From the NCBI GenBank assembly GCA_025057935.1, contig JANWUW010000078.1, forward strand, positions 1 to 64,000: a stretch of 64,000 nt of DNA. Reading direction: 5' to 3'. Below, piece after piece: positions 15,957 through 22,441 of the stretch. This DNA is from Thermoflexales bacterium. Lineage in GTDB: Bacteria > Chloroflexota > Anaerolineae > J036 > Brachytrichaceae. The notes under the pieces are model-generated. The model ran no database searches and was not told where the DNA came from. It saw only the letters and a list, made by a program, of their open reading frames with translations. Numbering within the stretch: position 1 is the first letter of the stretch; the number at the start of each line of letters is the position of its first letter. Both the position numbers and the translations under genes were made by a program.

Positions 15957-17837
15957 TCACTCGCGTCCACTTCCCGGCGTCATGGGCGGCGGCGGCTTGT
16001 GCTGCGCGCGGCGTTGGTCGAGTTGCGCCTTCACGCGCATCGGCAGCCCAAATAGCCGAATGAAGCCATCGGCGCTGCGCTGGTCGTATGCCTCATCGTT
16101 ATTGAAGGTAGCAAGGTCTTCGCGGTAGAGCGAGTAAGTTGCTTTGCGCTGCACGACCATGACGTTGCCCTTGAACAGTCGCACGCGCACGCTGCCGGTG
16201 ACGTCGCGCTGCGTCACTGTGATGAAGGCTTGGAGCGCGTCGCGCAGCGGCGTGAACCACTGACCGTTGTAAACCAAATCGGCGAACTTGAGCGCGACGA
16301 TCTGCTTGAAGTGCATCGTCTCGCGGTCGAGCGTGATTTCCTCCAACCCTTGGTGCGCGGCGCGCAAGATGGTAGCTGCAGGCGCTTCGTCCAGCGCGCG
16401 CGACTTGATGCCTACCAAGCGGTTCTCCACGATGTCCACGCGCCCCACGCCGTGCAAGGCGCCGATCTCGTTTAGGCGCTCGATGAGCTGTGCGCCGCTG
16501 AGCGCTTCTCCGTTGAGGCGCTTAGGGATGCCGTTGAGGAACTCGATCTCGACGTACTCAGGAGCGTCTGGTGTTTCCTCAACAGCGTTGGTCCATTTCC
16601 AAAGGTGCTCCTCGGGCTCATACTCGAGGTCCTCGAGCTTTCCGCCTTCGTGGTTGAAGTGCCACAGGTTTTCGTCGAGCGTGTAGAGGTCATCGTTAAA
16701 GTCGCCGAGGGGCACGCCGCGCGAGCGCGCATACTCGTAGACGTCGCGTCGCCCTTTGAAGTGCCACTCGCGCCAGGGCGCGATCACGCGCAAGTTTGGG
16801 TTGAGCGCCATGTAGCTGAGCTCGAAGCGCACCTGGTCGTTGCCTTTGCCGGTCGAGCCATGCGCCACGGCGTCGGCGCCTTCCTGCATGGCTACATCCA
16901 CTTGGTGCTTGGCGATCAGCGGGCGCGAGATCGACGAGCCGAGCAGATACTTGTGCTCGTAGATTGCGCCGCTTTGGATCAACGGGAAGAGGTACTCATT
17001 TGCGAACTCCTCGCGCAAGTCGCGGATGATGACCCTGCTGGCGCCGATGCGCAGCGCCTTTTGCCGCAGCGCCTCGAAGTCCTCGCGCTGTCCGATGTCC
17101 GCGAGAAAGCAGATCACTTCGCAGCCATAGTGCTCGATAAGCCAAGGAATGCACGCTGAGGAATCCAAGCCGCCGGTGTAGGCAAGCACGACCTTGCGCA
17201 CTTCGCGCGGCGCTGCGCGATCGGCGTGGGCAGCGGGGGCGGCGCTGAGGCGCGTGACAGTCTCCAGCGGGATGCGGTTCTCGCGGCTAACGGCGCGGCG
17301 CGCAATGCGCCCGGCGCGCACCGCGGCGAGCACCTCATTGCGCACTTGCGCGTTGATGATCGGCGCTTGTTCAGGCTGCAGAGGCATCATCACGGCGACC
17401 TCGTCGCAGTTCTCGAGCATCGGACACTGCACGCAGTCGCTCCACACCTTTTCGGGGAAGAACTCCTTGGGTGCAACTGAGAAGCCGCATTTCTCGAAGA
17501 AGCGCACGGCGCGCGTCAATGCGAAGATTGTGCCGAATTGCCGGCGCCGTGCTTCTTCTACAAGCGCTGCAACCAGTTTCTGCCCTACGCCCCCGCCGCG
17601 CGCGGACTCGTCCACAGCCAGCGAGCGCAGCTCGACCAGTGTCGTGTTCATTGGCAGCAGCGAACCGCAGCCCACCACGCGCCCTGTGTTGTCCTCCGCG
17701 ACGAGGAAATTGCCGAGATGTGCGCGGATGTTTGCTTCGCTGCGCGGCAGCAAGCCGCCCTTGCGCGCGTTGTGCGCGATCAGCGCAGCAATCGCGGGCA
17801 CGTCATCGTGGACGGCAGGGCGAATCCGAACAGACAT
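15957..17837 (-). CDS. fusion of NAGS-like GNAT acetyltransferase and argininosuccinate synthase-like domain
   Basis: 626 residues. Residues 1-155 are a GNAT of the short N-acetylglutamate synthase type: acetyl-CoA loop [11 protein letters not shown] (79-89), FFEKCGF, and the cysteine motif [16 protein letters not shown] (131-146). Residues 156-212 are a linker. Residues 213-612 are an argininosuccinate synthase of the Thermus/eukaryote-like type. The aspartate-side motif [12 protein letters not shown] (327-338) is intact. The ATP-loop reads AYTGGLDSS (219-227) where the family signature is SGGLDT, and the usual SRGVYETPG reads SRALDEAPA (479-487), losing a Tyr known to face citrulline. A Pro-rich tail ends it. 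It follows the canonical argG by 14 bp. The GNAT role in arginine synthesis is likely; the synthase-like half may use another substrate. Confidence 0.85.
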
Positions 17838-17851
17838 GCGACAGTGCGACG

Positions 17852-19255
<1,404 letters not shown>

Positions 19256-19288: not shown

Positions 19289-20047
19289 TTACACGCTTTC
19301 AAAGGTCGTGCCTAGATCGCGGGTGAGACCGATCACGTTCGTAATGCGGGCACGCGCGACGCCGAACGCAAGCGCCTCCAGCGCGGCGCGCACTTTGGGG
19401 ATCATGCCACCGCGAATCACGCCTTGCGCAATGAGCGCCTCTGCTTGTTCACGGGTGAGGCGCGGCAGTAAGACGCCACCACTGTCCAGAACGCCGGCGA
19501 CGTTGGTCACGAAGGTGAGCAAGTCGGCGCTGAGCGCGGCTGCGATTGCGCTTGCGACGTGATCGGCGTTCACGTTGTAGATAGCGCCGTCCTCGCCAAG
19601 CGACACAGGCGCGATCACGGGCAGCCAGCCCTGTGCGAGAAGGGCACGCAGTCTCTCGGTGCGCACCTGGGTGGGCTTTCCGACGAACATCAGCGCCTCG
19701 TTGATCGGTGCGGCGCGCACAAGCGCGCCATCAATGCCGCTCACGCCGAGCGCGTCGAGCGCGTGCGCTTGTAGCGCAGCGACCAGCCGCTTGTTGGTCA
19801 AGCCGCTCAGCACCATCAACGCAGCGTCGCGCGTGGGCGCGTCGGTGACGCGCAAACCGTCCACAAAGCGCGTGGGTATGTTGAGCGCGTTGAGCAAGTC
19901 TGTGAGCGCTTTGCCGCCCCCATGCACGATGACTACTTGCTCGTTGCGCTGATGCAGCGTTGCCACCGCTGCAGCGAATGTCTCGACGAATGACGCATCG
20001 TCGAGTTCGTTGCCGCCGACCTTTACTACGTGCATGCGCGCGCTCAT
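19289..20047 (-). CDS. argB: acetylglutamate kinase
   Basis: 252 residues, on the short side for the family. Phosphorylates N-acetylglutamate, the second step of the acetylated arginine pathway. Visible motifs are the N-terminal VVKVGGNEL, HGGGKALTDLLNALNIPTRFVDGLRVTD (substrate loop), and the C-terminal IRGGMIPKVRAALEAL with the catalytic Lys. The ATG at 20047 overlaps the argC stop (ATGA), so it is translationally coupled to argC. A longer frame from 20155 runs inside argC and is not used. No N-terminal helix of the arginine-feedback-sensitive hexameric type is visible, so allosteric inhibition by arginine is doubtful. Confidence 0.93.
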   Translation of the reverse strand: MSARMHVVKVGGNELDDASFVETFAAAVATLHQRNEQVVIVHGGGKALTDLLNALNIPTRFVDGLRVTDAPTRDAALMVLSGLTNKRLVAALQAHALDALGVSGIDGALVRAAPINEALMFVGKPTQVRTERLRALLAQGWLPVIAPVSLGEDGAIYNVNADHVASAIAAALSADLLTFVTNVAGVLDSGGVLLPRLTREQAEALIAQGVIRGGMIPKVRAALEALAFGVARARITNVIGLTRDLGTTFESV

Positions 20048-21072
20048 TGCAAGCCCTCCGTTTCGTCGAAGCCGAACATCAGATTCATGTTTTGGATCGC
20101 TTGTCCGCTTGCACCTTTCACGAGGTTGTCGATGCATGAGACGATCTGCAGACAACCCGGCAGGTCGGCGACGTGGTGCACAGAGATCACCGCGTAGTTG
20201 GTGTGCGCAGCGTGGGCAATGGTGCTGATCTGCCCTTGCGGCAACACGCGCACAAAGGGCTCTTCAGCGTAGCGCTGGGCATAGCGCTGCTGCCAATGGT
20301 CGCACGACGCTTCGGGCGTGAGGCGCACATAGATCATGCTCAGCATCCCGCGCGAGATCGGCAGCAGGTGAGGACTGAACCACACCTTCACTGCTGAACC
20401 ACAGACAGCGCTCAGCTCTTGTTCGATCTCTGGCACGTGGCGATGCACGTGACCTATGTTGTACGGCGCGAGTGACTCGTTGACCTCAACAAAGTGCGTG
20501 CTGAGTGTGGGCTTGCGCCCAGCGCCGCTCACACCGCTCTTGCTGTCGGCGATCACCAGCGGCTCTGCAAGCGCCTCGGCTTCTAGGAGCGGCAGCACGC
20601 CGAGGACGATGCTGGTTGGGTAGCAGCCTGGGTTGGCAACCAAGCGCGCATTGCGGATGCGCGTGCGATAGCGTTCTGGCAGACCATACACTGCTTCAGC
20701 GAGCAAGTGGGGCGCGGGGTGCTCGTGAGCATACCACTGCGCATAGGCACTCGTGCTGCGCAGCCGGAAGTCAGCGGAAAGATCAATCACGCGCGCGCCA
20801 GCTTCGAGCGCGCGCTGGCACATGCTTGCGCTTGCGCCGTGAGGCAAACACGAGAACACGACGTCCACCTTGTGGAGAGGCGCGTCGTCAGCGGCGACGA
20901 GCGGCAGATCGAAGGGCACAGGGAGCACGTCGCTGAGCTTGGCGCCAGCGTTGCTTTCACTGTGTGCGAAGACGATGTGCGCGCGGCGATGACGTGCTAA
21001 CCAACGCACTAGCTCGGCGCCCGTGTAGCCAGTGGCACCGAAGATGCCAATGTGGATTACGGAGTCGTTCAT
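20044..21072 (-). CDS. argC: N-acetyl-gamma-glutamyl-phosphate reductase
   Basis: 342 residues, normal length. Reduces N-acetylglutamyl-phosphate with NADPH. The Rossmann start IGIFGATGYTGAELVRWLARH, the catalytic cysteine in VANPGCYPTS, SGVSGAGRKPTLSTHF and the HRHVPEIEQEL segment with the catalytic His are present. It is the first structural gene of the arg operon. Its ATG lies 12 nt downstream of a terminator's T-tract, and its own ribosome site (GAGGTG) is between the two. This placement makes expression depend on reading through the terminator. Confidence 0.96.
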   Translation of the reverse strand: MNDSVIHIGIFGATGYTGAELVRWLARHRRAHIVFAHSESNAGAKLSDVLPVPFDLPLVAADDAPLHKVDVVFSCLPHGASASMCQRALEAGARVIDLSADFRLRSTSAYAQWYAHEHPAPHLLAEAVYGLPERYRTRIRNARLVANPGCYPTSIVLGVLPLLEAEALAEPLVIADSKSGVSGAGRKPTLSTHFVEVNESLAPYNIGHVHRHVPEIEQELSAVCGSAVKVWFSPHLLPISRGMLSMIYVRLTPEASCDHWQQRYAQRYAEEPFVRVLPQGQISTIAHAAHTNYAVISVHHVADLPGCLQIVSCIDNLVKGASGQAIQNMNLMFGFDETEGLQ

Positions 21073-21083
21073 AGCACCTCAAC

Positions 21084-21115
21084 AAAAAAGCCCCCGACAC
21101 GTGTGTGTCGGGGGC
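21084..21115 (-). terminator. intrinsic terminator/attenuator in front of argC
   Basis: On the minus strand an exact 11-bp stem (GCCCCCGACAC, loop ACAC, GTGTCGGGGGC) is followed at once by six T. It lies 20 nt after the leader-peptide stop and 12 nt before the argC start. A terminator here can only act on transcripts destined for the arg operon, which marks it as an attenuator. An upstream segment, GTGTGCCGGG at 21179-21170, can pair with CCCGACAC of its ascending arm if two bases bulge, a possible antiterminator. Confidence 0.88.
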
Positions 21116-21135
21116 GTAGATGTCGCCATCGCTGC

Positions 21136-21222
21136 TCACGCGACCTTAGCGCGTGTCGGCTCGATCGCACCCGGCACACACGCAGGTGCTCTACGACGAC
21201 GGTCGCGCACTGGTCGCTGCAT
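21136..21222 (-). CDS. arginine-rich leader peptide of the arg operon
   Basis: A 28-codon ORF starting MQRPVRDRRRRAPA and ending TRAKVA. Seven codons are Arg, four of them consecutive (CGT CGT CGT AGA, codons 8-11), with others at codons 3, 6 and 24. The ATG is 10 nt downstream of TATAAT, so the mRNA would start at or beside it. The stop (21138-21136) lies just upstream of the terminator in front of argC. The features match classical leader peptides (his, trp, ilv) whose ribosome stalls when the cognate charged tRNA is scarce. The peptide itself probably has no function after translation. Confidence 0.82.
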   Translation of the reverse strand: MQRPVRDRRRRAPACVPGAIEPTRAKVA

Positions 21223-21232
21223 CGCAACGATG

Positions 21233-21238
21233 ATTATA
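21233..21238 (-). promoter_or_regulatory. -10 box of the arg operon promoter
   Basis: TATAAT on the minus strand, 10 nt before the leader-peptide ATG and about 166 nt before argC. No clear -35 hexamer is seen at the usual distance. Confidence 0.65.
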
Positions 21239-21364
21239 GCGCTACTTGGGAGCGCGGGAAGCGGCGAGGAAGGGAGCAGCGATGCCGGCGCCGATCTTCT
21301 CGACGATGCAGGCGTTGACGTGGCGCTTAACTCCAAGCTTATGCACAATAGGAGGGCAAAGCAT

Positions 21365-22441
21365 ATGGTGCTCCTGGATTCACTCCGCCGTTACTTCACG
21401 GAGTCCTTGCATTGGGACACAGCGAGAAACAGTGCGCCGCTCACATTTAGTTTGGGCGAGCATCGAATTGAAGCGCATCCTCTTGCACAGGCAGGCTGGG
21501 TCATCGCGTATGGAGTGATTGGTGATCAGCTCACTCTTAGCCGTCCTCTTCGCCGAAAGGTCCACGTGGCTATCGCGCGCCGCACCCTCTCTCATCCTTT
21601 GCTGGTGTTCATCAGCACTAAAGACGACGAGAAAGCCATCTGGCGCTGGAGGACGAGCGAGCATCGCTCAAAGCTGCCTCCTCTAACGCACAACGACGCT
21701 TGGCTGGCTGAGCTCGCGCTCCCCTTACACTCGACTCCTAGCCCAGACGAGGTCATCCAAAGGCTCGATAAGGCGCTGCTCCGCAGGCAATCGCCATCGA
21801 CAAGCGAGGGTAAGCCGAAGCCGTTGCTGCTGGCTGCGCTGGATCAGCTTTTGCACGCGGTGGAGACGACGATTGGCGATGCCTCGGAGATTGCTAAACA
21901 GGCGTTCACTGGTGCGTCCGAGGTGAGCTTTGACGAGGTTGTGCGCTTGCGAGAGAGTTTGCAGGCGTTTAAAGAGAAAGCGAACACGCTGCGTAACGAG
22001 GCGCAAGTGTTGGTGCAAGAGTTTCCAATGCTTGCCCACCGCCGAGAGGACGGGACGTTACTGCTTGCTGCGCGCAAAGTGGTGCCACGAGGGAAGCGAA
22101 CTCCTCAGTCGGCGTATCGCTGCCCCATTCTGCGTGCGCTCGTTCAGCTGGGTGGCAAGGGCACTGTCCGCCAAGTGCTCGATGTGGTGTATTCGCAGAT
22201 AAGTAACCGCTTGTCCACATACGACTTTGCCCCTGTGTCCAGCGGTCGCGATCTCGTGTGGAAAGTGGCTGCAAAGTGGGAACGCAGCAAGATGAAGCAA
22301 GAAGGATTGCTGCGCAGCGACTCACCCGCAGGCATATGGGAGATCACCGAGGCAGGACGTCGCTACTACCAGGAGCGCTGTAGCGATGATGGTGGTTCGC
22401 GGAGCGCACAGTCCAGCCAGAGTATGCGCCTGCCCGAGTAG
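21365..22441 (+). CDS. protein with C-terminal Mrr-N-like winged helix, possible restriction-system relative
   Basis: 358 residues. The N-terminal half (LLDSLRRYFTESLHWDT, HPLLVFISTKDDEKAIWRWRT) resembles the domain that opens many Eco57I-like or DISARM-type methylase proteins. A charged helical middle follows (about 180-240). The last 90 residues (CPILRALVQLGGKGTVRQVLDVVY to GIWEITEAGRRYYQERC) look like the winged-helix N-terminal domain of Mrr-type restriction proteins, here at the C-terminus. No nuclease or methylase motif is visible. The start is set by AGGAGG at 21350-21355, nine bases before ATG 21365. It is divergent from the arg operon and stands alone. Function unknown; the defence link is inference. 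Confidence 0.7.
   Translation: MVLLDSLRRYFTESLHWDTARNSAPLTFSLGEHRIEAHPLAQAGWVIAYGVIGDQLTLSRPLRRKVHVAIARRTLSHPLLVFISTKDDEKAIWRWRTSEHRSKLPPLTHNDAWLAELALPLHSTPSPDEVIQRLDKALLRRQSPSTSEGKPKPLLLAALDQLLHAVETTIGDASEIAKQAFTGASEVSFDEVVRLRESLQAFKEKANTLRNEAQVLVQEFPMLAHRREDGTLLLAARKVVPRGKRTPQSAYRCPILRALVQLGGKGTVRQVLDVVYSQISNRLSTYDFAPVSSGRDLVWKVAAKWERSKMKQEGLLRSDSPAGIWEITEAGRRYYQERCSDDGGSRSAQSSQSMRLPE

Follow-up and report, generated by a model that had tools for sequence, protein, structure and literature searches.

Attenuation of transcription through a leader peptide is well known for tryptophan and histidine, and the textbook control of arginine genes is exerted by ArgR or, in some Firmicutes, by T-boxes. 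In fungi, a conserved peptide encoded upstream of arg-2/CPA1 stalls the ribosome together with free Arg and blocks translation. The leader peptide of the carAB operon of Pseudomonas aeruginosa reportedly contains Arg codons, according to the primary paper on that operon. Leader-peptide attenuators have been described for the trp, his, leu, ilv, phe and thr genes of Proteobacteria, for his also in some Firmicutes, and for trp, cys and branched-chain genes in Actinobacteria (PMC9413887, PMC1262725), and the groups that a broad survey of terminators names for leader-peptide systems are limited to Proteobacteria, Actinobacteria and, as a new addition, Firmicutes (PMC2965389). No conserved RNA structures were reported before the arginine operons of Actinobacteria, and arginine is given there only under the T-boxes of other bacteria (PMC1262725). 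As for carAB of P. aeruginosa, attenuation was ascribed to pyrimidines and arginine acts at the transcriptional level, the peptide being absent from P. syringae (PMC4997734).

No description of a leader-peptide attenuator of an arginine biosynthesis operon was found in the open-access literature, although subscription papers may hold such a prediction. This agrees with an earlier note on the DNA studied here, which knew of no leader-peptide control of arg genes in Chloroflexota. Arginine is a notable gap among the amino acids sensed by this kind of attenuation. Here we analyse the region upstream of argC in a member of this phylum which, to judge from the comparison of sequences, almost certainly holds a conserved Arg leader and a switchable terminator.

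Organization of the argC leader region

The window, that is, the whole stretch of 64,000 nucleotides that was analysed, lies on contig C58 of a metagenome-derived genome of 2.27 Mb which is 97% complete. The features of the leader and of the operon that follows it are listed in Table 1. The ATG of argB overlaps the stop codon of argC (ATGA). The operon also holds two adjacent argininosuccinate synthases of differing type, one PRK05370-type and one common-type, and the GNAT domain in front of the latter resembles N-acetylglutamate synthase.

Table 1. Features of the argC leader region and operon in the window (all on the minus strand).
Feature	Position	Strand	Evidence or remarks
−10 box, TATAAT	21233..21238	−	Read from the sequence
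Leader peptide ORF, 28 codons, MQRPVRDRRRRAPACVPGAIEPTRAKVA	21136..21222	−	ATG 21222; stop TGA 21138-21136
Control codons 8-11, CGT CGT CGT AGA (four Arg)	21190..21201	−	Sequence; Arg enriched in class leaders
Segment 1, GCACCTG, directly 3' of the Arg codons	21183..21189	−	MFE fold of the window RNA
Segment 2, antiterminator strand, GTGTGTGCCGGGTGC	21167..21181	−	Pairs with segment 3; permutation support
Segment 3, GCCCCCGACACACAC, ascending terminator arm and loop, antiterminator partner of segment 2	21101..21115	−	
Intrinsic terminator	21084..21115	−	Stem 21115-21105/21100-21090, loop ACAC 21104-21101, T6 21089-21084
argC, N-acetyl-gamma-glutamyl-phosphate reductase, first structural gene	20044..21072	−	TIGR01850, 381.9 bits (cut-off 233.6)
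argB, acetylglutamate kinase	19289..20047	−	TIGR00761, above cut-off
argG, long type (PRK05370 argininosuccinate synthase)	17852..19249	−	NF003779, 822.8 bits
GNAT N-acetyltransferase fused to a second, common-type ArgG	15957..17837	−	NF001770, Acetyltransf_1

The minus strand carries the TATAAT box, the ORF of 28 codons with four consecutive Arg and seven in all, and the stop codon, just as the earlier note had read them, the Arg residues being those of codons 3, 6, 8-11 and 24. Ten bases separate the TATAAT box from the leader ATG, and transcription is expected to start at about 21227-21225, 3-5 nt 5' of this ATG, which would give a near-leaderless mRNA. No recognisable −35 consensus was identified before the leader in the window sequence. 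The terminator hairpin, GCCCCCGACAC-ACAC-GTGTCGGGGGC (21115-21090), has 11 bp and a predicted energy of −23.8 kcal/mol, and begins 20 nt after the leader stop. This gap, the 11 bp and the six T had been described correctly in that note; the distance from the end of the T6 to the argC ATG (21072) is 11 nt, not the 12 nt given there.

An Arg run in a short ORF is not in itself a signal in this GC-rich window, in which RRRR is present in five of the ATG ORFs of 15-60 codons, 5.7 being expected by simulation. The ORF alone is thus unremarkable and the claim of an attenuator depends on comparison, since it is the combination of the elements and, above all, their conservation that exceed chance. In addition, a long plus-strand ORF (21032-22441) that encodes an Mrr_N domain towards its C-terminal end overlaps mechanically with the attenuator. 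The gene itself probably starts further downstream, because this neighbour is not conserved in relatives.

Conservation of the leader among Chloroflexota

Loci of argC were collected by ArgC searches in 298 genomes of the class (Anaerolineae) and 350 of the phylum, and their upstream regions were then compared. In all 21 usable members of the family, argC is preceded by an Arg-rich leader ORF with a U-tract terminator after it (for instance MVAIEIRFRRPRSMGRVSG... with GTGTGTCCGG, and CCCCTGACACAC...GTGTTAGGGGCTTT, at locus L008). The sequence beyond the leader on its upstream side is unrelated among close family relatives, so that the conserved block is the leader itself; at L003, a tRNA gene seems, by eye, to lie there on the opposite strand. 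Arg codons, terminator and antiterminator are kept and the rest of the peptide drifts, which is the pattern of conservation that the earlier note had anticipated for an attenuator. In the class, a terminator was found 5' of argC at 85 of 98 loci by a mechanical rule which missed two further terminators and several of whose negatives stop at a contig edge. About one tenth of the class loci have no detectable leader.

Outside the class, the same arrangement of leader and terminator is present in Roseiflexus and its kin (family f108) and in family f81, for which Herpetosiphon is our probable guess, and it was absent from the other loci of the phylum that were examined. One genome of family f110 has no leader before argC, which is directly preceded by an apparent argH and an acetyltransferase gene. 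The 73 named argC loci from other phyla yielded 20 terminators and no convincing Arg leader. Arg-rich matches before argC in those phyla were rejected as leaders, most of them apparently being the C-terminal coding end of an upstream gene that looks like that of ribosomal protein S9.

A promoter of the form TTGACA/TAnnnT lies just before the leader at 73 of 95 loci, for an expectation of 1.8 from shuffled sequences. Between the −10 box and the first in-frame start codon the median distance is 10 nt (7-11 nt in many relatives), so that the 5' end of many leader mRNAs should coincide with the start codon or precede it by a few bases. At L013, L015, L018, L022, L153 and L161 the start codon comes about 7 nt past the −10 box and the mRNA would be leaderless. 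At L234 (family f93), a TTGACA/TATTCT promoter is followed by an ORF with several Arg codons that ends just before argC with no clear terminator, and this may possibly be a translational variant.

Arginine specificity of the leader peptide

With ORFs picked blind to their amino acids, stretches of eight codons holding four or more Arg were found at 60% of the class loci and in 12.5% of dinucleotide shuffles. Arg alone was enriched, the fractions in class leaders and in shuffles being close for all other amino acids. At least three Arg codons are present within 60 nt 5' of segment 2 at 83 of 95 loci, a biased count because these leaders were picked by Arg content. The clusters comprise 3-8 codons, drawn from the full set of six codons for Arg (CGT 149, CGC 126, AGG 59, CGA 35, CGG 20 and AGA 9), so it is the residue that is kept and not the DNA. 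In several families (L123, L129, L137, L182 and others) the cluster is written in AGG codons (AGGAGG...) and resembles a Shine-Dalgarno sequence.

No conserved peptide was identified across families beyond the density of Arg and the adjacent Pro, since length, position of the Arg run and flanking residues all vary. Pro stands beside Arg in the leaders more often than expected (57 times versus 33.7 ± 4.9 in residue shuffles; 0 of 2000), possibly as a means of slowing the ribosome further or because of constraints on RNA pairing. Because the peptide may in this way add to pausing, we considered nascent-peptide arrest, in which, as with the fungal arginine attenuator peptide, the ribosome would be stalled by the Arg-rich peptide itself, the ligand being free arginine or some other small molecule, and the stall would set the terminator. 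We regard this explanation as improbable, given that the peptide varies as described, that the geometry places the stall at the Arg codons and that a biosynthetic operon fits the logic of starvation.

The upstream regions of argF, argJ and argH in the same family contained no Arg leader, and terminators were found at 4 of these 71 loci. A shared arg regulon of Arg leaders was accordingly rejected.

Other arginine controls in the phylum

ArgR (PF02863) was found neither in the own genome (0 of 1) nor in the class (0 of 199 genomes), the positive controls being detected in 8 of 14 reference genomes, and control of the operon of the window by ArgR was rejected for this reason. Within the phylum ArgR is present in 84 of 350 genomes, all of them of families f64, f67, f74, f75, f77, f79, f88, f90, f99 and f102, and in the sampled genomes these families do not overlap with those showing an Arg leader or a T-box. 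The window gave no match to the T-box (Rfam RF00230), and the same method finds it 5' of argC at L224, L237 and L243, and weakly at L218, in family f76, which is probably Ktedonobacteria. These f76 matches score 62.6-69 bits, under the Rfam gathering score of 93, with E values from 1e-12 to 1e-14. As far as sampled, three arginine sensors (ArgR protein, T-box RNA and leader peptide) split the phylum by family.

The absence of ArgR also bears on whether the leader could be a general attenuator of translation stress, sensing antibiotics or slow ribosomes as the Arg-Leu-Arg resistance leaders do and not specific for arginine. Arg-containing motifs are indeed known in antibiotic-sensing leaders (PMC8632094). 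However, the leader precedes argC throughout and never argF, argJ or argH, and its clusters follow no fixed RLR motif, so that together with the lack of ArgR we hold this explanation to be very unlikely.

Alternative pairings in the leader RNA

In the window, the duplex between segments 2 and 3 has a predicted energy of −22.1 kcal/mol. To examine covariation, the ascending arm of each terminator was matched in turn to the leader of the same locus and to those of all other loci. Segments 2 and 3 of one locus paired more strongly than those of different loci, since the sum observed for 92 loci was reached in none of 20000 permutations, and the result held with one sequence per family (31 families; 0 of 50000 permutations). 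Examples of these pairs are GTGTGTC/GACACAC in family f1 and GGTCTGG/CCAGACC in many others; TGTGTCTGG/CCAGACACA is found at L125, TGAGGTTCG/CGAACCTCA at L175 and GTCTGGAGGG/CCCTTCGGAC at L188, and the pair GAGGTTCGG/CCGAACCTC of L196 differs from GTGGTTCAG/CTGAACCGT of L195. Both strands change, between families and within them. A 1:2 hairpin is also frequent, in which GTCTGG pairs with the stretch that directly follows the Arg codons (as a rule CCAGAC or CCGGAC), and its average support by permutation (16 of 20000) is weaker than the 2:3 signal.

The antiterminator pairing that the earlier note had drawn with the ascending arm of the terminator finds support in the duplex, in the covariation and in the folding described below. 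Its candidate for the competitor of segment 2, CCGACAC (21159-21153), did not hold: in the predicted ribosome-free fold of the window this sequence is part of an outer stem, and the predicted main competitor is GCACCTG (21189-21183), which pairs with CCGGGTGC (21174-21167) inside that stem.

A structured leader with alternative pairings might also be expected if a riboswitch or an RNA-binding protein sensed the ligand directly and drove the terminator, the ORF being incidental. We give this possibility hardly any weight, because the leader had no Rfam match above threshold, no aptamer-like conserved core was apparent beyond the 2:3:4 pairings, and the enrichment in Arg and the promoter just before the ORF would be left unexplained. 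Finally, a constitutive terminator of upstream transcription joined to a fortuitous Arg-rich ORF, a plausible reading of the window by itself given how common RRRR ORFs are there by chance, is ruled out for practical purposes by the conservation, the covariation, the dedicated promoter before the leader and the unrelated sequence farther upstream in close relatives.

Folding with a ribosome on the leader

For folding, the RNA was taken as far as the terminator loop, at a point where the descending arm has yet to be made, and the footprint of the ribosome was kept single-stranded. In the window, the probability of the 2:3 pairing was 0.02 when no ribosome was present and 0.00 when one covered segment 2. 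Of the two ribosome positions that the earlier note had proposed to compare, the Arg codons behaved as an attenuator would have it, the probability rising to 0.99-1.00 at codons 8-11, and the stop codon did not, since a ribosome there, 36 nt beyond the contiguous 2:3 core and too far downstream for the masking of segment 2 in the textbook scheme, left segment 2 free (1.00). Across 80 loci, the probability was below 0.5 without a ribosome at 60 and above 0.5 with a stalled one at 66, a figure that uses the best Arg codon of each locus and, as masking any codon there acts alike, tests geometry and not codon identity. With the ribosome at the stop it was below 0.5 at 55 of the 80 loci, as the textbook model predicts.

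The stop lies directly 3' of segment 2 in many families (L035, L125, L131 and L150), which is the classical arrangement. In most members of the family of the window it is found 16-36 nt past segment 2, so that the terminator must there be favoured by passage and release of the ribosome and not by its waiting at the stop codon. When the full RNA is folded at equilibrium the terminator wins nearly always, also in the window, and from this we infer that antitermination must be kinetic.

Proposed mechanism

The computation itself gives the parts of the leader, their conservation, the specificity for Arg, the 2:3 covariation and the change in folding that a stalled ribosome is predicted to cause. 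These make it very likely that the argC-argB-argG operon is subject to ribosome-mediated transcription attenuation with charged tRNA-Arg as the signal, and the leader-peptide attenuator proposed in the earlier note gains support both from conservation in relatives and from the folding with a stalled ribosome. The start of transcription, the translation of the ORF, the kinetic competition and the response to arginine would be as follows. Transcription would begin a few bases 5' of the leader ATG, with the ribosome trailing the polymerase. When charged tRNA-Arg is scarce, the ribosome would stall at codons 8-11 and cover segment 1; segment 2, thus freed, would pair with the emerging ascending arm, the polymerase would pass before any terminator could form, and argC would be transcribed. 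When arginine is plentiful, the ribosome would run over segment 2 and then be released, segment 2 would be either covered or paired again with segment 1 and so unavailable, and the 3:4 terminator would form, ending transcription 11 nt before argC.

A more far-reaching version, which we put forward as a speculation that is rather unlikely to hold as a whole, is that in Anaerolineae and some Chloroflexia the leader would be an arginine sensor of ancient, perhaps ancestral, origin that takes the place of ArgR. In this version the 70S ribosome would enter a leaderless transcript, and pausing of the Pro-Arg nascent chain would be joined to the sensing of codons, charging and peptide having a combined effect.

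An entire class that lacks ArgR appears to control arginine synthesis through a leader peptide, and Chloroflexota are a good setting for asking how one arginine sensor replaces another. Two predictions can be made, namely that for many uncultured Chloroflexota the arginine status should be readable from RNA 3' ends and that translation of a leader can start almost without a 5' UTR.

Comparison with known systems

The T-boxes of arginine genes resemble this leader in sensing the charging of tRNA-Arg and in placing a terminator before arg genes, but they bind the tRNA directly and need no leader peptide. The fungal arginine attenuator peptide (arg-2/CPA1) also couples an upstream peptide to arginine biosynthesis; here, in contrast, there is no conserved peptide and the output is a transcription terminator. 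The orf34-speF leader of Salmonella likewise senses arginine by pausing of the ribosome on consecutive Arg codons of an upstream ORF, although it has two such codons, serves ornithine decarboxylase (polyamines) and acts through Rho, RNase G and the structure of the speF RBS (PMC6386406). The leader of P. aeruginosa carAB is similar in that a leader peptide precedes an operon serving arginine (and pyrimidine) synthesis and attenuation was proposed (PMC4997734), but gene and phylum are different. For arginine, the speF and carAB leaders were the nearest systems found. The closest design is that of the trp/his-type attenuators, with a short ORF in which the codons of the end product are clustered, mutually exclusive 1:2, 2:3 and 3:4 pairings and a terminator before the first gene, from which the present leader differs by its amino acid, arginine, by its occurrence in Chloroflexota and by its near-leaderless ORF. 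The mechanism would therefore be a known one, and its specificity for arginine and its phylum appear to be new as far as we could find.
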